Origin: Acrocarpospora catenulata
GTDB taxonomy: Bacteria > Actinomycetota > Actinomycetes > Streptosporangiales > Streptosporangiaceae
Assembly (NCBI RefSeq): GCF_018476525.1
Contig: NZ_JAHCST010000019.1
Span: forward strand, 1-64,000
Length of the DNA stretch: 64,000 nt
Direction: 5' to 3'
The notes beneath the pieces are model-generated. The model had not been told where the DNA came from. It worked only from the letters and a program-made list of their open reading frames with translations, and did not search any database. Position 1 is the stretch's first letter. Every line of letters starts with the position of its first letter. The position numbers were made by a program, and so were the translations under genes. Positions 8,619 through 44,546 of this stretch are shown here, piece after piece.

Positions 8619-9833
8619 ATGAGGTTCTCCCTGTTCTATCCCGTGGCGGTGGCCTCCGCCGCCGACCTCGGGACGGGCCTGCTCGGCCTGGATCGCCACC
8701 GCTACCACACCACGATCGACGAACTCCGAGAGCAGGCCGTCTGCGCCGACCAGACCGGCTGGACGTCCCTGATGCTGGCCGAACACCACTTCGAGGTGGA
8801 GGGGTACCAGGTCACCCCGAACCCGCTGATGCTCAACGTCTACCTGGCCCAGCACACCACCCGGCTCCGGCACGGCCAGATGGGCCTGGTGCTGCCCAAC
8901 TGGAACCCGCTCCGGCTGGCCGAGGACATCGCCATGGCCGACCACCTCACCGGCGGGCGGCTGGACATCGGGCTCAGCCGCGGCTACCAGACCCGCTCGG
9001 TCGGGGTGCTCGGCCAGCACTACGGCGCCAACGTGGCCGGCAGCGGCCGGGCCGAGGTGGAGGCGCACAACCGCCGGGTCTTCGAGGAGTGGTTCGAGGT
9101 GCTCCGCCGCTCCTGGACCGAGGACCTCTGGTCGTACGACGGGGAGTTCATCAAGATCCCGATGCCCGGCCTGAGCTGGCCGCACCCGATCTCCACCCGG
9201 CTCGGGGCCGGCGTCGAGAACGGCGAGGTCAAGCAGATCGCCACGGTGCCCAAACCCCTCCAGACCCCGCATCCGCCGCTGTTCACCACGCTCACCCAGA
9301 GCTCGGCCACCCTGGACTGGGCGGCCCGGGTGGGCAGCTCCATCGTGACCATCGCCACCGACCACGCCATGCTGCGCGGCCTGTTCGAGTCGTACGCGGA
9401 ACTGGCCACCGGCTACGGGCGGCCGATGGCCCCCGGCGCGTGGAGCCCCGGCGGGGGAGTGGCGGTGTGCCGGATGCTCGCGATGGGCAGAACCCACGAG
9501 GAAGCATGGGAGACCGCACGGCAGAGTGTGGCCTTCACCGCGGACTGGCTGGGCGAGTTCGGCTTCTTCGAGGCGTGGCGGCTGCCCGGGCAGACCGGGC
9601 CGGTGCCCCGCACGCTGGAGCAGCTGGTCGCCGCCGGAGCCATGCTGGTGGGCACCCCGGACGAGGTGGGTGAGCAGGTGGAACGACTCCGCGACGAGCT
9701 CGGGGTGGAGTACGTCGTCTTCGTGGCGTGTGGCGGCGCGGTGGATCACGGCCGGATGCTGGACACTATCCAGCTCTTCGGCGACCACGTCATCCCGCGT
9801 GTCTCCGCCGGCGTGTCGGGCGCCCGGGTGTGA
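8619..9833 (+). CDS. LLM-class flavin-dependent monooxygenase
   Basis: A 404-residue bacterial luciferase-like TIM barrel. It begins MRFSLFYPVAVASAAD and contains SLMLAEHHFEVEGY, a motif common to the group, and LADHLTGGRLDIGLSRGYQ. These enzymes use reduced FMN supplied by a separate reductase to oxygenate small organic substrates, in the cytoplasm. It overlaps the next gene, an IclR regulator, by four bases (GTGA), so both are in one operon. The FNR-type reductase encoded just upstream could supply flavin, but that is speculative. Substrate unknown. Confidence 0.85.
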   Translation: MRFSLFYPVAVASAADLGTGLLGLDRHRYHTTIDELREQAVCADQTGWTSLMLAEHHFEVEGYQVTPNPLMLNVYLAQHTTRLRHGQMGLVLPNWNPLRLAEDIAMADHLTGGRLDIGLSRGYQTRSVGVLGQHYGANVAGSGRAEVEAHNRRVFEEWFEVLRRSWTEDLWSYDGEFIKIPMPGLSWPHPISTRLGAGVENGEVKQIATVPKPLQTPHPPLFTTLTQSSATLDWAARVGSSIVTIATDHAMLRGLFESYAELATGYGRPMAPGAWSPGGGVAVCRMLAMGRTHEEAWETARQSVAFTADWLGEFGFFEAWRLPGQTGPVPRTLEQLVAAGAMLVGTPDEVGEQVERLRDELGVEYVVFVACGGAVDHGRMLDTIQLFGDHVIPRVSAGVSGARV

Positions 9834-31180: not shown

Positions 31181-31231
31181 ATGTCTCCACGACTGTCCCC
31201 CCGCACGCCCTCGACCCGCCTGTCGTCATGA
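31181..31231 (+). CDS. Possible 16-codon leader peptide upstream of ino1
   Basis: AGGAAGG (31167-31173) precedes ATG 31181, which opens MSPRLSPRTPSTRLSS. The stop TGA (31229-31231) overlaps the start of the inositol-phosphate synthase gene (ATGATG at 31228). The synthase itself has no good ribosome site nearby, so its translation may depend on termination-reinitiation from this leader. Confidence 0.4.
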   Translation: MSPRLSPRTPSTRLSS

Positions 31232-32376
31232 TGGTCGGGATCTGGCTGATCGGGGCACGGGGTTCGGTGGCGACGACGGTCGTCGCGGGTGCGGCGGCCC
31301 TCCGGGCCGGGCTGGCGCCTCCGATCGGATGCGTAACTGAACTGCCGGAATTCCGGGGGAGTGGCCTGCCCGGATTCGGTCACCTGGTGTTCGGCGGTCA
31401 CGACGTCACCAGCACACCGCTGACCAAGCGGGCCGAGGAGCTCACCCGGTCGGGGGTGATCCCGCCCCCGCTGGCCGAGCTGGTCCGGCCCGCGCTGGAC
31501 GCGGCCGACTCCGAGATCCGGCCGGGCGTCACGGTCCCGTCCGGCGGCTCCGGACAGGACAGCCAGGCGGCTGTGGCCCGGCGGCTCATCGGCGACCTGG
31601 CCGAGTTCCGCGAGCGGCGCGGCCTGGCCAGGGTCATCGTGATCAACGTCTCCTCCACCGAGCCGCCCGCGGCTCCCGACCCCGCCCACCTGAGCCTGGC
31701 CGCGCTGGAGCGGGCGCTCGAAGGCGACGTCCCCCTGCTGCCGCCGAGCTCGCTGTACGCCTACGCGGCGCTCAGCGCCGGTTGCCCGTACGTGGACTTC
31801 ACCCCGTCCACGGGGGCCCGGCTGCCCGCGCTGGACGAACTGGCCAGGCGGCGCGGCCTGCCGTACGCCGGCAGTGACGCCAAGACCGGGGAGACGCTGG
31901 TCAAGACCGCGCTGGCGCCGCTGTTCGCGGTGCGCGGCCTGGCCGTACGGTCCTGGTCGGGCACCAACCTGCTGGGCGGCGGGGACGGTGCCACCCTGGC
32001 CGACCCGGCGGCGGGGGAGAGCAAGAAGATCTCCAAGGACCGGGCGCTGGCCGAGATCCTGGGCCACCAGGTCGACGGCCAGACGCACATCGACAACGTG
32101 CCGCACCTGGGCGACTGGAAGACCGCGTGGGACCACATCACCTTCGACGGCTTCCTCGGCGTGCGCATGTCCATGCAGTTCACCTGGCAGGGCTGTGACT
32201 CGGCGCTGGCCGCGCCGCTGGTGCTCGACCTGGCCCGGCTGATGGCCCGCGCGCACGAGCGCGGGGTGGCCGGTCCGGTGGCCGAGTTCGGGTTCTTCTT
32301 CAAGGACCCGGTGGGCAGCGGCGAACACCGGCTGCACGCCCAGTACGAGGCGCTCCGCCAGTGGCTGGAGGCGTGA
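31228..32376 (+). CDS. ino1: Inositol-3-phosphate synthase (myo-inositol-1-phosphate synthase family)
   Basis: A 382-residue NAD-dependent cyclase that makes inositol phosphate from glucose 6-phosphate. It has the Rossmann loop IGARGSVATTVV at the N-terminus, a central SDAKTGETLVKTALAPLF block (lysines of the active site) and the conserved SWSGTNLLGGGDG and KSKD-like KKISKDRAL segments. It heads the ebo cluster, occupying the place of the dehydroquinate-synthase-like EboD in cyanobacterial clusters. The product therefore probably carries or is modified with an inositol unit, which is inference. Confidence 0.9.
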   Translation: MMVGIWLIGARGSVATTVVAGAAALRAGLAPPIGCVTELPEFRGSGLPGFGHLVFGGHDVTSTPLTKRAEELTRSGVIPPPLAELVRPALDAADSEIRPGVTVPSGGSGQDSQAAVARRLIGDLAEFRERRGLARVIVINVSSTEPPAAPDPAHLSLAALERALEGDVPLLPPSSLYAYAALSAGCPYVDFTPSTGARLPALDELARRRGLPYAGSDAKTGETLVKTALAPLFAVRGLAVRSWSGTNLLGGGDGATLADPAAGESKKISKDRALAEILGHQVDGQTHIDNVPHLGDWKTAWDHITFDGFLGVRMSMQFTWQGCDSALAAPLVLDLARLMARAHERGVAGPVAEFGFFFKDPVGSGEHRLHAQYEALRQWLEA

Positions 32377-32377
32377 G

Positions 32378-33208
32378 GTGGATCTCGCGTCGCTGGCCCA
32401 GCTGGTCCGGGCCCCCGCCGCGCTGACCGTGCCGGGCGACACCCTGGCCGGCGGCACGGCGCAGCCGGGCCTGGCCGCCTCCTCGGTCTGCCTGTACTGG
32501 GCGGGCATGGCGCTCAACGACTACGCCGACCGGGAACTGGACGCCACCGAGCGCCCGGAACGGCCGATACCGTCCGGGCGGATCCGCCCCGGCCAGGCGC
32601 TGGCGGTGGCGGCAGGGCTGACCGTCAGCGGGGTCGCGCTGGCCGGGCTCTCCGGCGGACGGCGCGGCCTCGCCGTGGCCACCGGCCTGGCCGGCGTGGT
32701 CTGGGCCTACGACCTGAGGCTGAAGGACACCGTGGCCGGGCCGGTGGCGATGGCCGCCGCGCGCGGCCTGGACGTGCTGCTCGGCAGCCCTTCGGCCAGC
32801 CCGCTGGCCGCCGCCTCGGTGGCCGCGCACACGCTGGGCGTCACCGCGCTCAGCCGGGGCGAGGTGACCGGCGGCTCGAACCTGCGGTCGGCGGTCACCC
32901 TGGCCGCCACCGCCGTGGCCGCAGGCCTGGCCGCGCGGCACATCGCCAAGGGCGGCGACCGGTGGGCCAAACTGGCCGGGTTCGGCCTGCTGGCCGGGTA
33001 CGCGGCGCTGGTCGGACGGCCCCAGCTGGCCGCCGCCCGGAGCCGGGACGCCAAGGTCACCCGGGCGGCGGTGGGCCAGAGCATTCTCGGGCTGCTGCCG
33101 TTGCAGGCCGCGCTCACCGCCGGCAGCGGGCGGCTGGCCCCCGCGCTCGCCCTGGCGGCGGCGCACCCGGTGGCGGCGAACCTGTCCAGGAAGGTGTCGC
33201 CGACATGA
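32378..33208 (+). CDS. eboC: UbiA-family prenyltransferase (EboC-like)
   Basis: A 276-residue membrane protein with about seven or eight helices. The first aspartate motif is NDYADRELDATERPERPIPSG and the second lies in WAYDLRLKDT, as in UbiA enzymes that transfer a polyprenyl chain to a small acceptor. The GTG start is one base after the ino1 stop. In the ebo context it may attach a lipid carrier to the inositol-derived compound for membrane passage. Confidence 0.85.
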   Translation: MDLASLAQLVRAPAALTVPGDTLAGGTAQPGLAASSVCLYWAGMALNDYADRELDATERPERPIPSGRIRPGQALAVAAGLTVSGVALAGLSGGRRGLAVATGLAGVVWAYDLRLKDTVAGPVAMAAARGLDVLLGSPSASPLAAASVAAHTLGVTALSRGEVTGGSNLRSAVTLAATAVAAGLAARHIAKGGDRWAKLAGFGLLAGYAALVGRPQLAAARSRDAKVTRAAVGQSILGLLPLQAALTAGSGRLAPALALAAAHPVAANLSRKVSPT

Positions 33209-34029
33209 GGTTCGGTTACGGCACCAACGGGTTCGCCAACCACCGGCTGTCGGACGCGCTGGTCCTCCTCGCCGACCTGGGCTACGAAGGTGTCGCGCTG
33301 ACGCTGGACAGCGGGCACCTCGATCCGTACGGGCCGTTCCTGGCGCGGCGGGTGGCGCAGGTCGGGCGGTGGCTGGACCGGCTCGGCCTGGCCCTGGTGA
33401 TCGAGACCGGCGGCCGGTACGTGCTGGACCCCAGGCGCAAGCACTACCCGACCCTGGTGCACCCGGCGGAGGAGGCCGCCCCCCGGGTGGACCTGCTCAA
33501 GAAGGCCGTCCAGGTGGGCGCCGAGCTGGGCGCGGAGGCCGTCTCGTTCTGGAGCGGCATTCAGCCCCCCGAAGTCGCCGACGGCTGGGACAACCTGGCC
33601 AAAGGCGTCGAAGCCGTGCTGGAGGAGGCCGACGCGCTCGGCGTCACGCTTGGGTTCGAGCCGGAGCCGGGCATGCTGGTGGACACCGTGGCCGGGTACG
33701 AGCGGCTCCGCGACATGCTCGGCCGGCCCGCGCGGCTCGGCCTCACCCTGGACATCGGCCACTGCCGCTGCCTGGAACCCGATCCGGTCCCCGACTGCGT
33801 GACGCGGGCGGGGCCGTACCTGGTGAACGTGCAGATCGACGACATGCGGCGCGGCGTGCACGAGCACCTGGAGTTCGGCGAAGGCGAGATCGACTTCCCG
33901 CCGGTGCTGGCCGCGCTCACCGCCACCGGCTACCAGGGGCTGGTCAGCGTGGAGCTGCCTCGGCACAGCCACGCCGCCCCCATGGTGGCCGAACGTTCCC
34001 TTCACTTCCTGAGAAAGGCGGTGTCATGA
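33205..34029 (+). CDS. Sugar phosphate isomerase/epimerase (xylose-isomerase-like TIM barrel)
   Basis: A 274-residue TIM barrel of the AP-endonuclease-2 superfamily. Metal-ligand motifs: LGFEPEPGMLVD (Glu), LTLDIGHCRCLE (Asp/His), VQIDDMRRGVHEHLEFGEGEID and VSVELPRHSH. ATG overlaps the eboC stop (ATGA). It may isomerise the inositol or sugar intermediate. It is distinct from EboE at 35527, so the cluster has two such barrels. Confidence 0.87.
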   Translation: MRFGYGTNGFANHRLSDALVLLADLGYEGVALTLDSGHLDPYGPFLARRVAQVGRWLDRLGLALVIETGGRYVLDPRRKHYPTLVHPAEEAAPRVDLLKKAVQVGAELGAEAVSFWSGIQPPEVADGWDNLAKGVEAVLEEADALGVTLGFEPEPGMLVDTVAGYERLRDMLGRPARLGLTLDIGHCRCLEPDPVPDCVTRAGPYLVNVQIDDMRRGVHEHLEFGEGEIDFPPVLAALTATGYQGLVSVELPRHSHAAPMVAERSLHFLRKAVS

Positions 34030-34676
34030 TCCCCCCTGTTCGCCCGCGACTGACCGAGGACGGCACCCGGTGGCTGGACGCCGCCGAGGCCAAGGTCAAG
34101 GCCGACCCGGGTGCCGTGCTCGCGCTCTTCCCCGCCGCCGGGCGGGCCTGCGGCCGTGGCCCGCTCCCCGAAACCGGCTGGACCGTCGACCTGGCGGTCC
34201 GCGCCACCCTGCTCACCGCGCTCCCGCTGGACGGAGAGGCGCTCGGCGAGCTGCTCTTCGACCTGTACACGCACGGCGACACCGCGGAACGCCTGGGCGT
34301 GCTGGCCGGTCTCGACGCCCTGGACGGACGGCTCGGCGACGCCGGGCTGCCCATCGTCCGGGACGCGCTGCGCACCAGCGACACCCGCCTGATCGGCGCC
34401 GCCCTCGGCTCGTACGGCGCAGCCCGGCTGCCGGCGGAGGCCTACCGGCAGGCCGTGCTCAAGTGCGTGTTCACCGGGGTCCCGCTGGACACCGTGCGCG
34501 GCCTGGACACCCGGGCCGACCGCGAGCTGGCCCGCATGATGGCCGACTTCGCCCGGGAACGGGCCGCCGCCGGGCGCGAGGTGCCCGCCGACATCTGGCC
34601 GGTCGTCGAACGCCACCCCGAGGTGCTCGCCGAGCTGACCACCGAACTTCCCTCCTTGTCCAGCGGAGCCTTGTGA
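34026..34676 (+). CDS. eboA: EboA-domain protein
   Basis: A 216-residue helical protein with the EboA hallmark near the C-terminus (GLDTRADRELARMMADFARERAAAGREVPADIW). The central part consists of HEAT-like short helices (VRDALRTSDTRLIGAALGSYGA). No enzyme motif is visible; it may be an adaptor or scaffold. ATGA overlap with the preceding gene. EboA is the defining member of the ebo cluster, known in cyanobacteria to be needed for moving the scytonemin precursor to the periplasm. Confidence 0.87.
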   Translation: MIPPVRPRLTEDGTRWLDAAEAKVKADPGAVLALFPAAGRACGRGPLPETGWTVDLAVRATLLTALPLDGEALGELLFDLYTHGDTAERLGVLAGLDALDGRLGDAGLPIVRDALRTSDTRLIGAALGSYGAARLPAEAYRQAVLKCVFTGVPLDTVRGLDTRADRELARMMADFARERAAAGREVPADIWPVVERHPEVLAELTTELPSLSSGAL

Positions 34677-35530
34677 TGCGCATCTTCGACCCCCACATCC
34701 ACATGACCTCCCGCACCACCGACGACTACCGCCGGATGTACGACGCCGGGGTCCGCGCCCTGGTGGAACCCGCCTTCTGGCTGGGCCAGCCGCGCACCTC
34801 CCCGGGCACCTTCGCCGACTACTTCGACGGACTGCTCGGCTGGGAGCCGTACCGGGCCGCCCAGTACGGCATCCGCCACCACTGCGCGATCGCCCTCAAC
34901 CCCAAGGAGGCCAACGACCCGCGCTGCCGCCCGGTGCTCGACCTGCTCCCGCGCTACCTGGCCAAGGACGGCGTGGTCGCGGTGGGCGAGGTCGGCTACG
35001 ACGAGATGACCCCGGCCGAGGACGAGGTCTTCCAGGCCCAGCTGGCCCTGGCCGCCGAGCACGGCCTGCCGGTGCTGGTGCACACCCCGCACCGGGACAA
35101 GGCGGCCGGCACCCGGCGCACCCTGGAGGTGGTCAAGGACTCCGGCCTGCCCCCGGAGCGCGTCCTGGTCGACCACCTCAACGAGATGACCGCCGGCATG
35201 GTGGCCGACAGCGGCTGCTGGCTGGGCTTCTCGGTCTACCCGGACACCAAGATGGACGTGCACCGCATGATCGCGCTGCTCCGGCAGTACGGCACCGAGC
35301 GGATCCTGGTCAACTCGGCCGCCGACTGGGGCCACAGCGACCCGCTGAAGACCCGGGCGGTCGGCGACGCCATGCTGGCCGACGGCTTCACCGAGGCCGA
35401 CGTCGAGCAGGTGCTCTGGACCAATCCGGTCACCTTCTACGGCCAGAGCGGGCGCCTTGACCTGGCGGACGACGCGGCCCCGGCCGCCGACTACGCGGGC
35501 AACACCATCAAACGGGGTGTGGCGCCGTGA
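34676..35530 (+). CDS. eboB: TatD-family metal-dependent hydrolase (EboB-like)
   Basis: A 284-residue TIM-barrel hydrolase. FDPHIHM supplies the first metal-binding His pair, GEVGYDE the Glu, VLVHTPHRD another His and VNSAADWGHSDP the final Asp. The ATG overlaps the eboA stop (TGATG). In ebo clusters the substrate of this hydrolase is not known. Confidence 0.88.
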   Translation: MRIFDPHIHMTSRTTDDYRRMYDAGVRALVEPAFWLGQPRTSPGTFADYFDGLLGWEPYRAAQYGIRHHCAIALNPKEANDPRCRPVLDLLPRYLAKDGVVAVGEVGYDEMTPAEDEVFQAQLALAAEHGLPVLVHTPHRDKAAGTRRTLEVVKDSGLPPERVLVDHLNEMTAGMVADSGCWLGFSVYPDTKMDVHRMIALLRQYGTERILVNSAADWGHSDPLKTRAVGDAMLADGFTEADVEQVLWTNPVTFYGQSGRLDLADDAAPAADYAGNTIKRGVAP

Positions 35531-36681
35531 GGTTCCGCCATCCCGACGGTTCCACCGTGCACCTGGCCTACTGCACCAACGTGCACCCGGCCGAGGACCT
35601 GGCCGGGGTGCTGGCCCAGCTCCGCCACTACGCCGGTCCGGTGCGGCGGCGGCTGGGGGTGCCCCGGCTCGGGGTCGGCCTCTGGCTGTCCCGCCCGGTC
35701 GCCGACGCCCTGCTCGCCAGCCCCGCAGAACCCGTACGGCTGCGCGCCGCGCTGGACCGGGAGGGCCTGGAGGTGGTGACCCTCAACGGTTTCCCGTACC
35801 GGGGGTTCCACAACGAGGCCGAGGCCAAGCTGCGGGTCTACCACCCCGACTGGACCACCCCCGACCGGCTCGACTACACCCTCGACCTGGCCCGCCTGCT
35901 CATCCCGCTCCTCCCCGACGACGTCACGGCCGGGAGCGTCTCCACGCTGCCGCTGGCCTGGCGTACGCCCTGGGACCACGCGCGGGCGGAGACGGCGGGG
36001 CGGGCGGTGGCCTGGCTCGCCGAGGAACTGGCCCGGCTGTCCGAGACCACCGGAAAGACGGTCCGGGTCGGCTTCGAGCCCGAGCCGGGTTGCGTGGTGG
36101 AGACCACCGCGCAGGCGGTGGAGCACCTGAGCGGCGTCGACACCCGCTACCTCGGCCTCTGCCTGGACACCTGCCACCTGGCAGTGCAGTTCGAGGAACC
36201 GGCCGCGGCCGTGGGCCGGCTGGCGGCGGCGGGCCTGCCGATCGTCAAGATGCAGGCGTCCGCCGCGCTGCGGATCGACGACCCGCGGGCGGGCCGGGAC
36301 GCCCTGGCCGCGTTCGCCGAGCCGAGGTTCCTGCACCAGACCCGCGAGCAGGGCACACCCGGGACCGACGACCTGGGCGAGGCCCTCGACGGGGGCCTGC
36401 CGGGCACCTCCCCCTGGCGGGTGCACTTCCACGTGCCGCTGCACGCCGCGCCCGCCGCGCCGCTGGGCTCCACCCAGGACGTGCTGACCGACACCCTCGG
36501 GACCGTGCTCGGCGGGCCGGTCGCCCGTACCCACCACATCGAGGTGGAGACCTACACCTGGCAGGCCCTGCCGCCGGACCGGCGCCCGAGCACCCGGGAC
36601 GAGCTGGTGGACGGGATCGCCAGAGAGCTGGCCTGGACCAGGGACCGGCTGATCAATCTAGGACTCAAGGAGGAGGCGTGA
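35527..36681 (+). CDS. eboE: Metabolite traffic protein EboE (TIM barrel)
   Basis: A 384-residue protein with the EboE opening LAYCTNVHPAEDLAGVLAQL. It shows a xylose-isomerase-like barrel (VTLNGFPYRGFHNEAEAKLRVY; VGFEPEPGCVVETT; LCLDTCHLAVQFEEP) and the C-terminal HFHVPLHAAPAAPLGSTQ and HIEVETYTWQALP blocks, which are diagnostic. GTGA overlap with eboB. Biochemical role unknown; the metal ligands look intact. Confidence 0.88.
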   Translation: MRFRHPDGSTVHLAYCTNVHPAEDLAGVLAQLRHYAGPVRRRLGVPRLGVGLWLSRPVADALLASPAEPVRLRAALDREGLEVVTLNGFPYRGFHNEAEAKLRVYHPDWTTPDRLDYTLDLARLLIPLLPDDVTAGSVSTLPLAWRTPWDHARAETAGRAVAWLAEELARLSETTGKTVRVGFEPEPGCVVETTAQAVEHLSGVDTRYLGLCLDTCHLAVQFEEPAAAVGRLAAAGLPIVKMQASAALRIDDPRAGRDALAAFAEPRFLHQTREQGTPGTDDLGEALDGGLPGTSPWRVHFHVPLHAAPAAPLGSTQDVLTDTLGTVLGGPVARTHHIEVETYTWQALPPDRRPSTRDELVDGIARELAWTRDRLINLGLKEEA

Positions 36682-38042
36682 GCGTGAAACCCCTCGTCGT
36701 CGTCGACGTGGTCGGGCTCACCCCCCGGCTGCTGGAGCACATGCCCAACCTGCGCCGCTTCGGCGCGCCCGCCACGCTCGGCACGGTGCTGCCCGCCGTG
36801 ACCTGCTCGGTGCAGTCGACGCTGCTGACCGGCCGCCCGCCGCGCGACCACGGCATCGTCGGCAACGGCTGGTACTTCCGCGACCTGGGCGAGGTGCTGC
36901 TCTGGCGGCAGCACAACGCGCTGGTGGAGGGCCCCAAGCTGTGGGACGAGGCCCGCCGCGTGCACCCGGGCTACAAGGTGGCCAACATCTGCTGGTGGTA
37001 CGCGATGGGCGCGGACACCGAGTTCACCGTCACCCCCCGCCCGATCTACCACGCCGACGGCCGCAAGGGCCCGGACTGCTACACCACCCCGCCGGAGCTG
37101 CGGGTGGACCTCACCCGCGAACTCGGACGCTTCCCGCTGTTCACGTACTGGGGCCCGAAGGCCGGGATCGCCTCCAGCACCTGGATCGTCGAGGCGGCCC
37201 GCCGGATCATGGCCAGGGAACGGCCCGACCTCACCCTGGTCTACGTGCCGCACCTCGACTACGACCTCCAGCGCTTCGGCCCCTCCGGCCCGGAGGCGAT
37301 CAAGGCCGCCCAGGACGTGGACCGGATCCTCGGCCCCCTGCTGGACGACGCGGCCTCGCTCGGCGCGGCCACCGTGGTCCTGTCCGAGTACGGCATCACC
37401 GACGTGTCCCGCCCGGTCGACATCAACCGGGCACTACGCCGCGAAGGGCTGCTCTCGGTCTACCGGCAGGCCGGGATGGAGTACCTGGACCCCTGGACCT
37501 CCCGCGCCTTCGCGGTCGCCGACCACCAACTCGCCCATATATACGTGCGCGACGAAGCCGACGTCCCCAAGGTCCGCTCACTCCTCGCCGAACTACCCGG
37601 CGTGGACGAGGTACTCGACGCCGACGGCAAGGCCGCCTACGGCCTCGACCACGGCCGCGCCGGAGAACTGGTCGCCATCGCCGAGCCCGACTCCTGGTTC
37701 ACCTACTACTACTGGCTGGACGACAAGGTCGCCCCCGACTTCGCCCGCCTGGTGGACATCCACCGCAAACCCGGCTATGACCCAGCCGAACTCTTCATGA
37801 ACCCCGCTGACCCCTTGGTAAAGGCCAAGGCCGGCCTCGCTCTGGCCAAGAAGGAACTGGGCTTCCGCTACACGATGCCGGTGGTGCCCCTCGACCCGTC
37901 CTGCGTACGGGGCAGCCACGGGCGCATCCCCGACAACCCGCTGGACGGCCCGGTCCTCCTCTCAGACCAGCCACTGGAGAAGGACACCTACGCGGCCACC
38001 GAGATCAAGGACCTCTTGCTGCGCTTCGCCGGTCTCGCCTGA
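36678..38042 (+). CDS. eboF: Alkaline-phosphatase-superfamily phosphodiesterase/pyrophosphatase (EboF-like)
   Basis: A 454-residue nucleotide pyrophosphatase/phosphodiesterase-like enzyme. VVVDVVGLTPRLLEHMPNL begins the fold and PAVTCSVQSTLLTGRPPRDHGIVGNGWYF carries the nucleophile Thr/Ser region. YVPHLDYDLQRFGP (metal Asp), VLSEYGI and AVADHQLAHIYV supply further metal ligands. AAGGAGGAGG just upstream serves either GTG 36678, chosen for its overlap with eboE, or GTG 36684. It could remove a phosphate-linked carrier from the transported metabolite. Last gene of the ebo operon. Confidence 0.86.
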   Translation: MSVKPLVVVDVVGLTPRLLEHMPNLRRFGAPATLGTVLPAVTCSVQSTLLTGRPPRDHGIVGNGWYFRDLGEVLLWRQHNALVEGPKLWDEARRVHPGYKVANICWWYAMGADTEFTVTPRPIYHADGRKGPDCYTTPPELRVDLTRELGRFPLFTYWGPKAGIASSTWIVEAARRIMARERPDLTLVYVPHLDYDLQRFGPSGPEAIKAAQDVDRILGPLLDDAASLGAATVVLSEYGITDVSRPVDINRALRREGLLSVYRQAGMEYLDPWTSRAFAVADHQLAHIYVRDEADVPKVRSLLAELPGVDEVLDADGKAAYGLDHGRAGELVAIAEPDSWFTYYYWLDDKVAPDFARLVDIHRKPGYDPAELFMNPADPLVKAKAGLALAKKELGFRYTMPVVPLDPSCVRGSHGRIPDNPLDGPVLLSDQPLEKDTYAATEIKDLLLRFAGLA

Positions 38043-38101: not shown

Positions 38102-41100
38102 TCAGGCGGCGCCGACGCCGTGGAGCAGGGCCTTGTGGTAGGAGCGAATGATCGTGGGCACGTGACCGAGCACGGCCATCAGGCGCTCGGCCCCGCCGGT
38201 TGCCGTACCGGCCTCGAACTGCTCGAAGACGATGACACCGTCACGGATGACCGACCGCAGCTCCGCCAGGAACGCCTGATCGTGTTTCCTGACTTCGGCA
38301 CAGAGGGCGCGCAGGGTCGACCAGGTGTCTTCGTGGACGGAGGCGTGGTCGCCCGCGACGGATCGGTAGCGGATCCGAAACTCCTCCGCGAAGCGTTCGG
38401 CGGCGACGGCGTCGGCTGTGGTCATGGCTTCGGCGAGAACGGTGTGGGGATCGGAGACCGATGCCTCCGGCGCGGTGAGGCCGGTCGTCAGGGTCCACAG
38501 CCGCGGGAGTTCCTCTTCCAGTACGGCCTTGTAGTAGCTGCCGAGAAAGCGCTGGTGCGCGTTGGAGGCGTACTGGACCTTGAGGGCGTTGACCTCGTCG
38601 GGGCCCTCGTCTCCGCGCGTCATCACTCCCGTCATGAATCCCCAGTCGTTCTCCAGGGCATTGGACATGGCGGTGATCAGGTGCAGGAGATGAACCCATT
38701 GCTCATACAGCTCGCTGAGGGAGATCCGCACGGTGCCGTGCCCGGGTAGCACGACGGTGCCGTGATGGTCGCCCAGGTCCAGGCGCCGGACTCTGCCGAT
38801 CCGGTACATGGCGAGCATCGCGTCGATTTCGCTGTTCTCATGGTGCAGGACGGCCCGATATTCGGCGGTGGCGTCGAGGCCGACATTCTCGGTGATGATG
38901 CGGGGGCCTCCGGGGTGCAGGTGGAGGAACTCCGTCATGTCGTAGACCTGGTCGTCGAGAATCAGCCACTGCCCGGTTTCTGCGGTGGTGCGCAGCGCGA
39001 CATCCGAGATGTCGTAGACCGTGTCCGTGCTCTCCGCGGGCGTCCAGGTGCTGAACACGTCCTGCATGTAGCGGCCCTCGGCGACGAGCCGCCGCACAAC
39101 GGTCTCGGGTGGCTCTCCCGGGTCGGCGAAGCGCCTGGCCACCTGGTTGAGCGTCGCCAGGACACTTCCCGCGAACCCGGCACGACCGCAGACATAGAAG
39201 TAGGCGCCGCGGCCACCGTCCTGTTCGCCGCGGAGCAGGTCCCACAGCGCCCGTTGTGCGTCCACATCGTTGGCGATGGCGTCGTGGAGACGCCTCGGAG
39301 GGCCGGCGACCGTCCGTGGGTTCTCGCCTGGGGCCGCGCGCAACCCGCCGCCCTCGATGGAGAACGTGACGTACAGGGCGAGCTTGCCGCCCTGCAGCGC
39401 TGTCCGGATCTCGTTCTCGCCGTAGAAGTGGCCGCGTGTGTGCGTGCCGAAGAACAGCCAGTTCTCCCCGGCTGCGGGGTCCGCCAGCCGGTGGGCCAGG
39501 AATCCGAGGAACGGGCCGATACCCACGCCTCCGGCGAACATGACGATGGGGCGCGTGGCGTCCCGTGGCAGGCTGAACCGACCGGGACGCACCACCTGGA
39601 ACGGAATGGATTCGACGGTTGTCCCGGTCGAGGTCAGATAGGTGGAGGCGGTGCCGAGCAGTTCGGTCCCGCTTCCGCGCGGGCTGTCGCCGCCCGCTTG
39701 GTGACTCAGCCGGGCCACGGTGAGCCGGACCTCGTCGCCGGCTTCTTCAGCACCCTTCGACGGGCTCGACGAGATCGAGTACATGCGGAATGTCTCCGGC
39801 GGAATGATCTTGGCCAGCGCCCGGTCATCCCGGAGCTCCCCGGTGAGGAGCTCGCCCACCCGGTACCCTTCCGCGCCCAGCAGTTCCAGGGCGTCGGACA
39901 GCTCCCACTGCCGCAGTCCGGTCCCCGTGGCCACCGAACGCAGACCGGGCGAGCCCGTGGCCTCCGCCAGTGCCCTGACCACGCCGTGGGTGAGCGGCCG
40001 GAGCTTGGCGTAGGACAGGAACGTCCGTAACGGCAGCGTCTCAGTGGACAGCGGATGCCGGGCGCGGTAGCGAATCGCCTCGCGCCACGCGACGGTGAGG
40101 GGCACCTGCTCGGCACCCGTGGCACCCAGTGCCCGGACCGTGGCCTCGACCATTTCCGGCCGGTTCTCCGGCAGCACGGCGCAGCGATCGCCGGGGCGGT
40201 AGATGACGCCGGTGTCGGCGGCGTCCAACGTCACATGCGTTACGGTTCCCGCCGCTGCCGCCGCGTCCCGGAACCGTACTCGTGCGTACTGCACGTGCGG
40301 AGGCAGTTCCCGGTAGCGTTCGAGGCGGGTCTCCTCCAAGATCGCGTCAAGGGTCTTCCAGTGCTGCTCCTTGAAGCCGCCGACGATGCCGGTGACGGTC
40401 TTCGACCGGCCGACTTTGAACGCCAGTTCCAGGAAACCGTAGACCTTCGTCCGATGGATGCCCAGATAGCCCATCTTCCCGGCGTAGACGTCGAACAGTG
40501 TGGCGAAAAGGTTCTGTAGCCGCCGGTCTCCGCTCGCGGCGACGTAATCGCGTACGGAGACCTTCTCCACCGCCTCCAGAAAGGCGATGTGATGCGGGGG
40601 AAACCATTCTCGCAGTTCCGCGACCTCCTTGCCGAGACGGGACTCCTTGTGCTTGCGCCCGAGAAAGGCGTCCATGAGATGGAAGATCGGGGAGGCTTCC
40701 CCTCCTGGCACCGCGGTACCGGATTTGATCGGTACCGCCAGCGGGGCAACCGTGTTGGCCCATACCACCTGGTCGATGTAGGTGGCGGACAGCGGGTTGG
40801 GATCCACCTTCCGGAAGGACAGCTCGATGATGTCCAGCCAGGTCCGCAGCATCAGCGTCAACTCGGCGGCCACGGTCTCCCGGTCGTCGCGTACCGCGGC
40901 TTCCTGGGCGCGCACCACCGAGGTGACGACAGGGGTCGCCCGGGCAAGGATCTCGACCTGCGCCAGATAGAAGCGTCTTTCCTCCCTGTTGTCCACACTG
41001 GGAACGAGAAGTTCCATGTTCTCGACCTGGTATGGGTTCGGCAGGGTCACGTCACGCAGCTGATGGTTGTAAACGATGAGGTCGTTGTACGACATGTGGG

Positions 41101-41500
41101 GCTCGCGGCGGCCCAGGCGCTCGCTGATCTGGGCCCAGGGCACCGTGATCGATGGCGGTAACCCATCGTCGGGCAGCACCTCCACCTTCACGTACGCGTG
41201 CGCGAATATGCTCAGCGCCACCGACGCCCGCCAGACGAACTCGTCTGGAAGATCGTTCTGATCGGCGCCGAGCACCGGCATCTCACGAAGGACCTGGCGC
41301 AACGTAACGGTGCGCCACAGTTCCGGCATAGACGCGATGACCTCGTCCCACGCCGCATGGCTGCGCGGAAACGATCGAACAGTCGGGAACCGTGGCATGA
41401 ACCCCGACGAGGACGACAAGAAGCCCTTTAGTTCATGGCCGCGCGTCGTGTTGTATTCCTCGGCGAGTTTCAGCATCTTCCGACTTGGTACCTGTTCCAT
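38102..41500 (-). CDS. Fusion: IDO-like heme dioxygenase - FAD/NAD(P)H reductase - cytochrome b5 - helical domain
   Basis: 1132 residues, no signal peptide. About 150-395 aligns by eye with indoleamine 2,3-dioxygenase: RFYLAQVEILARATPVVTSV, FRKVDPNPLSATY, LREWFPPHHIAFLEAVEKVS, then GIHRTKVYGF, where His349 fits the proximal heme ligand. About 405-790 is a P450/sulfite-reductase-type FAD and NAD(P)H module without flavodoxin domain (YRPGDR 434-439, FRMYSISSSP 571-580, GGVGIGPFLGF 657-667, FYVCGR 768-773). About 826-907 is cytochrome b5 (HPGG 862-865, second ligand His886 or 887). The last 210 residues are helical and unrecognised. Electrons probably run NAD(P)H, FAD, b5 heme, IDO heme. Monocistronic; substrate unknown; codon use looser than neighbours. 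Confidence 0.82.
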   Translation of the reverse strand: MEQVPSRKMLKLAEEYNTTRGHELKGFLSSSSGFMPRFPTVRSFPRSHAAWDEVIASMPELWRTVTLRQVLREMPVLGADQNDLPDEFVWRASVALSIFAHAYVKVEVLPDDGLPPSITVPWAQISERLGRREPHMSYNDLIVYNHQLRDVTLPNPYQVENMELLVPSVDNREERRFYLAQVEILARATPVVTSVVRAQEAAVRDDRETVAAELTLMLRTWLDIIELSFRKVDPNPLSATYIDQVVWANTVAPLAVPIKSGTAVPGGEASPIFHLMDAFLGRKHKESRLGKEVAELREWFPPHHIAFLEAVEKVSVRDYVAASGDRRLQNLFATLFDVYAGKMGYLGIHRTKVYGFLELAFKVGRSKTVTGIVGGFKEQHWKTLDAILEETRLERYRELPPHVQYARVRFRDAAAAAGTVTHVTLDAADTGVIYRPGDRCAVLPENRPEMVEATVRALGATGAEQVPLTVAWREAIRYRARHPLSTETLPLRTFLSYAKLRPLTHGVVRALAEATGSPGLRSVATGTGLRQWELSDALELLGAEGYRVGELLTGELRDDRALAKIIPPETFRMYSISSSPSKGAEEAGDEVRLTVARLSHQAGGDSPRGSGTELLGTASTYLTSTGTTVESIPFQVVRPGRFSLPRDATRPIVMFAGGVGIGPFLGFLAHRLADPAAGENWLFFGTHTRGHFYGENEIRTALQGGKLALYVTFSIEGGGLRAAPGENPRTVAGPPRRLHDAIANDVDAQRALWDLLRGEQDGGRGAYFYVCGRAGFAGSVLATLNQVARRFADPGEPPETVVRRLVAEGRYMQDVFSTWTPAESTDTVYDISDVALRTTAETGQWLILDDQVYDMTEFLHLHPGGPRIITENVGLDATAEYRAVLHHENSEIDAMLAMYRIGRVRRLDLGDHHGTVVLPGHGTVRISLSELYEQWVHLLHLITAMSNALENDWGFMTGVMTRGDEGPDEVNALKVQYASNAHQRFLGSYYKAVLEEELPRLWTLTTGLTAPEASVSDPHTVLAEAMTTADAVAAERFAEEFRIRYRSVAGDHASVHEDTWSTLRALCAEVRKHDQAFLAELRSVIRDGVIVFEQFEAGTATGGAERLMAVLGHVPTIIRSYHKALLHGVGAA

Positions 41501-41614
41501 ACCACACCTCTACACGAGAGGAAATAAGCGAATTGCCAGATCATTGGCGGCAGGTGGCGCCCTCGCAGCCGCCGCGGCACGGAAGTCGGTTGCGATGCTT
41601 CTTATGGTGGATCG

Positions 41615-42550
41615 ATGAAGGATTTCCACGCGCGCGCCTACCATGCCGATGACGCGGCGGCGGTTGCCGAACTGATCAACGTTGTCTTCCAGGCCGGCGG
41701 CTGGAACGCCGGGCACACCGCCGCCGAGATCGAAGATGTGGTGAACAACGAGGTCAAGGACCCGGCGACGGACACCCTGCTGATCACCGACGCGGAGGGT
41801 CGGCTGGTGGCCGCCGCGCTGGTGCCACCCCCACCCGAGGGCGGCCACCGGATCGAGCTGATCGGCGGCGTCCACCCAGACCGGCGCGGAGCAGGGATCG
41901 GCCGCGAACTGCTGGCCTGGCAACTCGACCGAGCCGCAACACGCCACGCCGAGACCGCACCGGACACGGAATGGCTGGGCCAGGTCGCCGCCGGCGTCGC
42001 CGACACGTCCGCGAGCCGCCTGTACGAACGCTTCGGCTTCACCGTAGGTCGATACTTCCTGCAGATGACAGCGCCCACCACGCCACCGCCGGTCGCCACA
42101 CCCGCCGCCGGCGTGCGGATCGCCCCCTACGATCAAGCCCAAGACCGTGAGCTGCACGCCGTGCACACTTCGGCCTTCCGCGACCTCTGGGCCCACCAGG
42201 ATCGCGATTTCGAGTCCTGGGCGGCGTTGACCGTACGATCGGAAACCTTCCTGCCCGACCTGTCCCGAGTGGCGCTCGCCAACGACAAGATCATCGCTTA
42301 TGTCCTGCCGTACGCCCACGCCGCACCCGACAGGCTTTACATCGGCCAGGTCGGCACCGTCGACTCCTGGCGCCGGCGCGGCGTCGCGACCTCGTTACTC
42401 GCCGACGTACTGGGCGCGGCCGGCCGAGCCGGCTACACCCACGCCGCCCTCGACACCGATGCCGACAACCCCACCGACGCGGCCGACATCTACGCGAAGG
42501 CCGGCTTCGTCATCGACCAGCACATCGCCGTCTACTGCAAACCCGTCTGA
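41615..42550 (+). CDS. GNAT N-acetyltransferase with two GNAT domains
   Basis: A 311-residue protein with tandem GNAT folds. The first has the acetyl-CoA loop GVHPDRRGAGIGRELL (about residues 89-104). The second has VGTVDSWRRRGVATSLLADVLGAA (about 246-269) followed by LDTDADNPTDAADIYAKAGF. The layout resembles mycothiol-synthase-like tandem acetyltransferases, though MshD itself is usually elsewhere. It is divergent from the IDO fusion, sharing a 114-base intergenic region. Substrate unknown. Confidence 0.83.
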   Translation: MKDFHARAYHADDAAAVAELINVVFQAGGWNAGHTAAEIEDVVNNEVKDPATDTLLITDAEGRLVAAALVPPPPEGGHRIELIGGVHPDRRGAGIGRELLAWQLDRAATRHAETAPDTEWLGQVAAGVADTSASRLYERFGFTVGRYFLQMTAPTTPPPVATPAAGVRIAPYDQAQDRELHAVHTSAFRDLWAHQDRDFESWAALTVRSETFLPDLSRVALANDKIIAYVLPYAHAAPDRLYIGQVGTVDSWRRRGVATSLLADVLGAAGRAGYTHAALDTDADNPTDAADIYAKAGFVIDQHIAVYCKPV

Positions 42551-42697
42551 CCTCCTGTATCTGTGTCGTACTCAGCCCAGGCTGAGTAGCCGGGCTCTGG
42601 CGCGCCGAACGGATTGAGAAGATCATCCTGGTATGCGAGGTATGGAACCGTTGATCGTGGTGGGCAAAGCTGTGCCGGTGGGCCTGGTAGGGGCGAG

Positions 42698-43642
42698 GTG
42701 AGCGGTCGGAAGGCGGTGGTTAGGCAGATCGCCGCGGCCTGGCTGGTTGGCTCCCTGCTGAGCCCGTTGCTGCTGTGGGTTGTTGTGGTGATCCTCTTCG
42801 GCGGCTCACCCGCCCTGCTGGCCCTCCTGGCTGTGCCCATGGTTGGCGCGCTGTGTCTGGTCGCCTGGACCGTCCGCCAGGGATCTCCGCTGACGTCGCG
42901 TGGCCCCGGGGGCCGGGTTTCCTGGGCGGCGCTGGTATTTCTGGTGGGGGCGGTGGGTTTCGTCGGTGGCGCCTGGGCCAATGCCGAGCTGGAGCTGCCG
43001 TTCGGCAGGGAACCGCTGATGTTTCTGGCCAGCGGTCTGCCGTTCGCGCTGGCGGCGGGGATGCTCTCGCAGCGCAGGGTCGCCCTCGGCGCGGTCGCGG
43101 TGACGACGGCACTGGTGGTCACGACCGTGTACCTCGTGGTGCAACACCGTGTCGACAAGCAGGCAGCGGCTGTTGCCGCGGATTTGGCCGCCCGTTTGCA
43201 GCCGGTGCGTGACCTGCTCTACGTCGTGCAGATCCCGGGATACCGGGTCAGTGGACGCGACACCTCAGGGGTGAGCGCATTCTTCGAACCTCTGGATCAG
43301 CGGGTGGTCAAGGTCTGGCAGGACCACACCATCGTGCTCACCGCTGAGCGTGGGTGGTCCGAGGAAATGTGTGCGGGGGCGTTCCTCGCTGCGCCCCTCG
43401 GCCGCGACGAGCATCCTCGGTGTGTCCTGGAGCGTCCCGGGCTCTGGTACCTCACCGGCCGCATCCCGGAACCGGAATGGGGATGCCCGTGCGGGCTCCA
43501 GCAATACATCCGGCAGGACGGCGGCGTCATGGTCAGAGTACACTCCTCCGACGCCGTACCCCGAGAAGTTCTCCGAGACGCCGTGCTCAACGCCCGCCAT
43601 GCCACCGAGGAGGAGGCCCGCGAGCTCCTCACCCCGTCCTGA
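42698..43642 (+). CDS. Membrane protein of unknown function
   Basis: 314 residues from GTG 42698, preceded by AGGGG. Five hydrophobic segments fill the first 160 residues (AAWLVGSLLSPLLLWVVVVILF; ALLALLAVPMVGALCLVAW; and others). The C-terminal half is soluble (RDLLYVVQIPGYRVSG; CPCGLQQYIRQDGG) and contains several Cys. The C-terminus ends in an acidic helix (ATEEEARELLTPS). I do not recognise the family. No operon partner is evident. Confidence 0.6.
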   Translation: MSGRKAVVRQIAAAWLVGSLLSPLLLWVVVVILFGGSPALLALLAVPMVGALCLVAWTVRQGSPLTSRGPGGRVSWAALVFLVGAVGFVGGAWANAELELPFGREPLMFLASGLPFALAAGMLSQRRVALGAVAVTTALVVTTVYLVVQHRVDKQAAAVAADLAARLQPVRDLLYVVQIPGYRVSGRDTSGVSAFFEPLDQRVVKVWQDHTIVLTAERGWSEEMCAGAFLAAPLGRDEHPRCVLERPGLWYLTGRIPEPEWGCPCGLQQYIRQDGGVMVRVHSSDAVPREVLRDAVLNARHATEEEARELLTPS

Positions 43643-43781
43643 GGCCGCGCTGGTAGGCCCGATCAGTTCCGAGATCACCAACAGCAGGTCATCCAGACGG
43701 TCCCCCCTCAGCTCCCCACAGATGCGCCGGGCGAAATCGGGCGCCTGGGGGACCGCGATCGCTGTACCGGGGATCCACAGG

Positions 43782-44546
43782 TCAAGATGGGGCGAGGCGT
43801 AGCATCTGGTCGCGGACGTGGTCGTCCAGGTCGGCCTGGAGCATGCCGTTGTTGATGGCGGGGACGCAGTTCATTGAGATCGTTACCGCGGCGGCCGGTC
43901 CTTCCGGATAATCGAATATGAGGCGGATGCCGCGTTCGTTAACGCCGCCAAGCCCTTGGCGTGTGTTCTGGCTCGGCACGGTGTCCAGGGAGTTCAGTGT
44001 CTTGGCCAGGTCGCGGGCGATGTCCCTGCCGTGCCGTTTCCGGTAGGGCGGCCTTGCGTACGTGGCGTCCCTGCACACGGTGAGTCGGCCGGGTCGTCCT
44101 GAAACCATCTGTTTGTCCTGATCCTTTCGGTCGCCGGGGCCCCGGCAGGGGTCGTCCGGCGGTACGGGCCGCCAAATTCCGTCCTTGTAGGCGGTGGTGA
44201 TGGCGGACCCGGTGTACGAGTTGCTGCCGACCGTGCCGTTGGTCGTCCTCACGCAGTGGTTGACCTCCTCGGCGCTGCCCACCCACAGGGCGTGGCCATT
44301 GGGGTAGGCGAACCGGATGAGGTAGTTGGTCATCGGTCCCCCCGGAGAGCCGGGGACGAGCGACTCCGCCGCGCCGTCGATGTCGGCGGCGGCGGGTACC
44401 CAGCCGCCGATGTCGTTGCCGCCCCAGCGCTGCGGGCAGGTGGACGGTACGGGCAGTGACTCGCTGACCGATCCCGAGAGCACCACAGCCGCTGTACAGA
44501 CCCCGGCCGCCGCGAGGCCGAGACTGATCCAATTGGAAAGCTTCAC
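43782..44546 (-). CDS. Membrane-anchored extracytoplasmic protein of unknown function
   Basis: About 254 residues from GTG 44546, opening VKLSNWISLGLAAAGVCTAAVVLSG, a single N-terminal helix after which the chain should lie outside. The rest is soluble with scattered Cys (STCPQRWGG, VNHCVRTTNG, LTVCRDATY, MNCVPAIN), suggesting disulfides. The frame stays open to 44669, so a longer cytoplasmic N-terminus is possible; no ribosome site clearly decides the start. It is divergent from the metal-chelate importer and could share its Zur-like box. Confidence 0.55.
   Translation of the reverse strand: MKLSNWISLGLAAAGVCTAAVVLSGSVSESLPVPSTCPQRWGGNDIGGWVPAAADIDGAAESLVPGSPGGPMTNYLIRFAYPNGHALWVGSAEEVNHCVRTTNGTVGSNSYTGSAITTAYKDGIWRPVPPDDPCRGPGDRKDQDKQMVSGRPGRLTVCRDATYARPPYRKRHGRDIARDLAKTLNSLDTVPSQNTRQGLGGVNERGIRLIFDYPEGPAAAVTISMNCVPAINNGMLQADLDDHVRDQMLRLAPS

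Follow-up and report, generated by a model that had tools for sequence, protein, structure and literature searches.

What kind of enzyme results when a heme domain related to indoleamine 2,3-dioxygenase (IDO) shares one polypeptide with its own apparent reductase? The question is raised by a gene of Acrocarpospora catenulata, located in a stretch of 64,000 nucleotides of contig NZ_JAHCST010000019.1 (hereafter the window). The gene is an uninterrupted frame of 1132 codons on the minus strand, with an ATG at 41500 and its end at 38102. An earlier note on this DNA had described an IDO-like segment, a FAD/NAD(P)H module of the cytochrome P450 reductase (CPR) type lacking the flavodoxin domain, and a cytochrome b5 (b5) in this single frame. 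Pfam confirmed the description, with IDO (E 2.3e-36), FAD_binding_1 (5.1e-9), NAD_binding_1 (2.6e-6) and Cyt-b5 (1e-15) following in this order, all above their cut-offs. The component parts are known, but the arrangement is not; a literature search, with subscription journals mostly outside its coverage, listed no paper describing an IDO-reductase-b5 fusion, in agreement with the note. The protein contains an IDO-family domain, predicted to bind heme, together with its likely redox partners, a combination that homologues retain. As to its function, we tentatively propose, at a probability somewhat short of even, a self-sufficient IDO-fold heme monooxygenase in which electrons would pass from NAD(P)H through FAD and b5 to the heme, with an aromatic compound as substrate.

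The window protein scored 125.9 bits against PF01231, whose family cut-off is 26. With residues 1-400 as a phmmer query, matches up to E 0.001 were IDO1 and IDO2 only (best 2.6e-17), and a profile made from 14 fused IDO domains retrieved, to E 1, only IDO2 (4.2e-33) and IDO1 (about 5e-29 to 7e-28) from the PDB sequences. Alignment of the fused IDO domains with four stand-alone bacterial IDOs by hhalign covered 303 columns (probability 99.9, E 6.5e-37). The family assignment of the earlier note was therefore upheld, while the range it gave, residues 150-395, was too narrow: the best Pfam match begins at residue 29, and the end of the domain lies near residue 397. An AlphaFold2 model of the full chain, built with 26 sequences, had a mean pLDDT of 76.3 and a pTM of 0.76. 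Its top Foldseek matches were P450 BM3 (first), CysJ and CPR; CPR-type FAD domains dominated, and IDO was absent among the 50 matches listed. These matches are silent on the IDO part.

Alignment A4, whose 14 rows include 9 of the 27 homologous loci described below and L099-L102, contains a single His invariant in all rows, His349. MAFFT aligns it with the proximal His of IDO, and the hhalign alignment stops 9 residues short of it. We propose His349 as the proximal heme ligand. Two aromatic residues are likewise found in 14/14 rows: Phe177, in the column of IDO1 Phe163, and Trp247, in the Phe226 column according to both MAFFT and hhalign.

On the other hand, residues associated with Trp dioxygenation are missing. 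In all four stand-alone bacterial IDOs (L090, L091, L096 and L105) the segment is YHR[VIL]R and the loop is GTGG[ST], and HMMER aligns the Arg of L096 with that of IDO1 'svlR'. This Arg231 of IDO1 touches the substrate carboxylate (PMC12921851). At its column the window protein has Ala252 by MAFFT and hhalign, or Tyr241 in the alternative register of HMMER, and no Arg or Lys occurs in its residues 232-258. Across the fusions, the first register gives Ala or Gly in 14/14 rows, and the second gives Tyr, His, Pro, Trp, Phe or Ala, with Arg in 0/14. Among the fusions, the window protein makes the strongest case for the loss of a basic clamp. The string GTGG is absent from the window protein, its own paralogue, the 27 loci, L099-L102 and L104; at its position the fusions have TTGAR/K, TVTG, TLSG, TLGG, TASG, TNGG or TIAG. 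In TDO, GTGGS directs the enzyme to dioxygenation, changing it to GTGGA or SLGGS shifts the reaction towards monooxygenation, and MarE, which has SLGGR, is promoted by ascorbate in its selective monooxygenation (PMC12312684). Monooxygenation by IDO itself requires a reducing agent, ascorbate, and is supported by NADH as well (PMC12921851).

The source of reductant may lie in the rest of the chain. The best PDB sequence match of the protein was a P450 reductase (7sux, E 1.7e-19); NCBIfam matches of the CysJ type were far below the equivalog cut-offs. The motif RMYS presumably represents the FAD-binding RxYS motif. Pfam detected no flavodoxin (FMN) domain in the window protein to E 1, a b5 being present instead, and no globin domain was matched. 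The b5 domain with HPGG noted earlier was borne out: His862 in this motif and the second ligand, His886, 24 residues later, are both conserved in 26/26 rows of alignment A2, which includes 25 of the 27 loci (L036 and L039 left out). Beyond it lie about 228 residues that the earlier note had not mentioned. They are mostly helical (pLDDT 86.1 when modelled alone by AlphaFold2), with no Pfam match above cut-off, no PDB sequence match to E 1 in a profile search, and a best Foldseek E of 0.07.

The fusion itself is conserved. A profile search of genome contigs with alignment A1 gave 99 pattern matches, corresponding to 27 distinct loci in Streptosporangiaceae, Micromonosporaceae, Pseudonocardia and Trebonia (Actinomycetota), Ktedonospora and an Anaerolineae metagenome-assembled genome (Chloroflexota), and a further such genome labelled Proteobacteria. 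All 27 confirmed loci match at least residues 22-1123, so that the fusion is no assembly accident and is preserved in homologues; a chance reading frame or assembly error is rejected on the same grounds. Pfam domain scans among these loci were made for L033, L042 and L055. A contig scan with P0001 confirmed no locus; the A1 scan went through IDO-domain patterns, and its sampling is therefore biased towards close A1 relatives. Further fusions occur in additional genomes. In the taxonomic family of the window (Streptosporangiaceae), 19 of 341 genomes, its own included, have a full-length match, that of G186 being in two pieces; among the matches listed, with two candidates scored per genome, only the window's genome has a second full-length copy without an N-terminal FHA domain. 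Across the phylum, 4 of 296 genomes have an IDO match and 3 of these have fusions (the window's own, G530 and G552). In the class of G530, fusions occur in 4 of 66 genomes, two of which have a stand-alone IDO too. L036 is an intact fusion of 1242 codons. In a tree of 32 rows, including 26 of the 27 loci, the window protein falls outside the FHA-bearing clade on a branch of length 1.59; the tree program warns of long branches meeting, and its placement is thus unsure. The FHA-bearing paralogue encoded in the same genome, which the earlier note did not notice, clusters with Streptosporangium and Sphaerisporangium (support 93/97, short of the starred level).

In the reaction that we propose, electrons from NAD(P)H would enter FAD and be handed one by one to b5, which would reduce the heme ligated by His349. 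The heme would then activate O2 and insert one oxygen atom into an aromatic, perhaps indolic, substrate, which would not be gripped by an Arg-carboxylate clamp of the IDO type. At the level of the family, activity may be gated by a neighbouring CBS protein, and in one clade also by the FHA domain. Dioxygenation needs electrons for priming only, whereas a monooxygenase or an NO dioxygenase needs them at every turn. Since the covalent NAD(P)H-FAD-b5 chain is retained across phyla, an electron-consuming reaction is favoured, and because both Arg and GTGG are lost we rank monooxygenation first. The sequences themselves show the domain order, its conservation, the missing Arg231 and GTGG and, in the family, the upstream CBS gene; from these we infer heme content, the electron route, monooxygenation, the substrate class and CBS/FHA gating. 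Of the self-sufficient dioxygenase or oxygenase suggested in the earlier note, the IDO-family domain with likely built-in partners stands, and a self-sufficient heme oxygenase is likely on these sequence grounds; a Trp or indole dioxygenase is not favoured, given the lack of Arg231 and GTGG and a near-full-length separate TDO in 6/10 fusion-bearing genomes. The loss of Arg and GTGG together with a built-in reductant predicts monooxygenation, which is testable with one purified protein. It is not yet clear how cells reduce IDO (PMC13142367), and a natural fusion of an IDO fold with a reductase and b5 provides a direct test of the electron route. Such an enzyme would extend the heme-dependent aromatic oxygenases by a branch that carries its own reductase and may be signal-gated, and a self-sufficient His-ligated oxygenase could make a useful biocatalyst.

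Several observations weigh against this proposal. The AlphaFold2 model falls below pLDDT 50 at residues 249-268 and 357-380. Where the window protein has Asn249, each of the 13 other rows of A4 carries a Lys, and 7 also carry an Arg a few residues further upstream, so that a different basic residue could serve in the family. The alignment is weak in the loop region, which the hhalign alignment does not reach. FAD_binding_1 is below its cut-off in P0002, L099, L100 and L102, indicating a divergent FAD domain, and L104 (3679-5739(-)) is made up of IDO, b5 and C-terminal domains, with neither the FAD/NAD(P)H module nor a CBS neighbour; the reductase is thus not indispensable. Clustering of the frames around 24 loci revealed no conserved metabolic neighbour that would name the substrate. 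The related PrnB is reported to give no product with b5 or P450 reductase (PMC11791213). Finally, bacterial IDO and TDO are said to be mutually exclusive (PMC4191572), a rule which the fusion breaks; since G552 and G696 also have a stand-alone IDO alongside TDO, exclusivity is a weak argument against Trp dioxygenation.

The alternative that survives best, although we consider it unlikely, is that the protein is a true Trp or indole 2,3-dioxygenase whose fused reductase and b5 merely hold the heme ferrous. IDO-family membership, the retained Phe177 and aromatic residue at the Phe226 column, and the Lys found close to the Arg231 column in all 13 rows besides that of the window protein would all fit. 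CPR, with or without b5, sustains IDO1 in vitro (PMC13142367), and b5 improves mouse IDO2, human IDO1 performing worse with b5 than with methylene blue (PMC4191572). Apart from the missing Arg (14/14) and GTGG, the gene content of ten fusion-bearing genomes argues against it. TDO (PF03301) exceeds its cut-off in eight and is near full length in six (G552, G696, G037, G064, G041 and G036); none was found in G530 or in G716 (75% complete). Kynureninase exceeds its cut-off in 6/10, adjoining TDO in G041 and G036 and lying about 3 kb from it in G037. G552 and G696 also encode a stand-alone IDO in which both Arg and GTGG are present. Because Arg231 and GTGG are absent and a separate TDO is present in 6/10 genomes, Trp dioxygenation is not favoured. 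The window's genome has just a short, split TDO match near a kynureninase-like frame (C148:35139-36958), perhaps a TDO relative of the natural-product type.

An NO dioxygenase analogous to flavohemoglobin, in which oxy-heme would convert NO to nitrate and FAD and b5 would re-reduce the heme at each turn, appears improbable. FAD and b5 would suit one-electron re-reduction; flavohemoglobin and the raphidophyte truncated hemoglobin-nitrate reductase are likewise multidomain heme-reductase proteins, and NO dioxygenation by cytoglobin is supported by b5 (PMC3820574). The same source, however, describes the IDO-like oxy Turbo myoglobin as incapable of high-fidelity NO dioxygenation, and 0/10 scanned window genes were related to NO.

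Comparably improbable is an O2 or redox sensor, or an electron-sink signalling protein, that would catalyse little and would pass on its heme state to a CBS protein, to the FHA domain or to the C-terminal domain. Here the gene neighbourhoods are relevant. In 32 of 34 loci, tblastn located a tandem-CBS frame upstream at a distance of at most 900 bp, the exceptions being L104 and the window copy; many of these loci are closely related and not independent. Frames above 90 codons were also clustered for 24 loci in 20 groups, and a CBS frame was present in 19 groups, all except the window; the other listed clusters in at least 4 groups map inside the two genes, bar one low-complexity cluster (4 groups). 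An N-terminal FHA domain is present in 25/27 loci, L042 and L055 lacking it, and is absent from L099-L102 and the window protein; it was identified by Pfam in L033 and the window genome's paralogue, and by pattern in the other loci. These partners, the two cNMP-binding stretches of L042, the kinase gene after L047 and the existence of an IDO-like myoglobin (PMC4191572) would suit a sensor. A complete NAD(P)H-FAD-b5 chain, however, exceeds the needs of a sensor, and the window copy has neither FHA nor a CBS gene, none being detected in 3 kb upstream or in the whole window at E 1e-3.

With a monooxygenase, the same accessory domains would take another meaning. The types of domain involved (CBS, FHA and cNMP-binding) suggest gating by nucleotides or phosphorylation. 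We regard as doubtful, but worth stating, an undescribed two-gene system, widespread in bacteria, whose tandem-CBS protein of the adenylate-sensing type, joined in one clade by a phosphothreonine-reading FHA domain, would switch a self-sufficient IDO-fold heme monooxygenase on and off. If true, the IDO fold would serve as a signal-gated NAD(P)H oxygenase resembling P450 BM3, and both the substrate and the helical partner domain would be new. As the window copy is divergent and has no FHA or CBS neighbour, its control may differ or be lost; the CBS gene next to the paralogue may act in trans.

We also observed variations among the homologues. L042 (1746-6143(+)) carries its two cNMP-binding stretches at the C-terminus, and the kinase of Pseudonocardia L047 (13409-15706(+)), which has a beta-propeller-like part, is encoded directly 3' of the FHA fusion. 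The genome of L104 (G167) also carries a full FHA fusion. In the same genus as the window, G002 (C97:41799-42671; L010, L079) has a fusion piece only, a 420-codon frame from the reductase region, perhaps a decayed copy or a contig artefact. The FHA-fusion frames start unusually: in 23/27 loci and the window genome's paralogue, an in-frame stop is followed by TCT/TTT-ACC-ATT, which overlaps the 3' end of the CBS gene (about locus base 9635 in homologues L034-L059, 957 in L039; paralogue L002 at 5157-5149(-)), and, apart from a TTG that three frames have at codon 8, no ATG, GTG or TTG precedes codon 22. In Pseudonocardia L047 the ATT is replaced by ATG. Translation may begin at a conserved AUU, for which infC is a precedent, or at the GTG of codon 22, or may enter the frame by a +1 shift out of the CBS gene.

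A decayed or non-functional window copy is very improbable: the long branch (1.59), a GC content at third codon positions (GC3) of 0.84, second lowest among 49 predicted window genes, and the missing CBS neighbour may point that way, but 1132 codons are open and the cofactor residues intact. Four adjoining predicted genes at 38102-44486 have the lowest GC3 in the window (0.81-0.84), and this stretch was perhaps laterally acquired. Plasmid cargo was rejected as an origin: tblastn gave 91 records, none covering 80% of the query, and the 20 matches listed hit the reductase part only. The gene is divergent from a GNAT gene and converges on an EBO-type operon (31228-38042), the two ends being about 60 bp apart; the operon encodes an inositol-phosphate synthase-like protein, a UbiA-type prenyltransferase, TIM barrels, an EboA domain, TatD, EboE and a phosphodiesterase; the EboA domain and EboE exceed NCBIfam cut-offs.

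Table 1. Positions of the fusion gene, its predicted domains and selected residues in the window
Feature	Position	Strand	Basis
Whole gene, 1132 residues: IDO-like, FAD/NAD(P)H reductase, cytochrome b5 and helical C-terminal domains	38102..41500	(-)	Frame and Pfam
IDO-like heme domain (predicted), residues 1-397	40310..41500	(-)	Pfam IDO, PDB profile search, hhalign against stand-alone bacterial IDOs
FAD/NAD(P)H reductase module of CPR/CysJ type, without flavodoxin domain, residues 398-816	39053..40309	(-)	
Cytochrome b5 domain, residues 841-904, heme ligands His862 and His886	38789..38980	(-)	Pfam; both His 26/26
Helical C-terminal domain, residues 905-1132, His982 invariant (26/26)	38105..38788	(-)	AlphaFold2, pLDDT 86.1
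His349, putative proximal heme ligand (IDO1 His346 column)	40454..40456	(-)	Sole invariant His, 14/14 in A4; MAFFT column
Trp247-Ala252, equivalent to IDO1 Phe226-Arg231; aromatic retained, Arg gone	40745..40762	(-)	MAFFT/hhalign
KVGRSKTVTGIVGGF, at the position of the GTGG[ST] active-site loop	40373..40417	(-)	Alignment weak here
RMYS, presumed FAD-binding RxYS motif	39776..39787	(-)	R572, Y574 and S575 invariant in A2

Among known systems, IDO (PF01231), including IDO1, IDO2 and the stand-alone bacterial enzymes, is closest in sequence family, putative proximal His, Phe177 at the Phe163 column and the aromatic residue at the Phe226 column. In contrast to IDO, the fusion has no Arg at the Arg231 column and no GTGG; it adds a reductase, a b5 and a C-terminal domain, and in the family a CBS gene lies upstream. 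MarE, PrnB, SfmD and TyrH, members of the wider superfamily, are His-ligated heme oxygenases, as the fusion is predicted to be. They are known as stand-alone proteins. MarE likewise lacks GTGG, and reductant promotes its monooxygenation (PMC12312684, PMC11791213). The four serve natural-product pathways (PMC11791213), whereas the fusion has likely electron donors attached. P450 BM3 (CYP102A1) also combines a heme oxygenase with a CPR-type FAD module on one chain, but the fusion has an IDO fold rather than that of a P450, and b5 replaces the FMN domain. Flavohemoglobin (Hmp) shares the pairing of a heme domain with a FAD/NAD(P)H module and one-electron re-reduction; its heme domain is a globin rather than an IDO fold, and it is not known to carry a b5. 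Fusions of the Ncb5or type carry b5 and a flavin reductase on one chain, like the window protein, with a different domain order and no known oxygenase domain.

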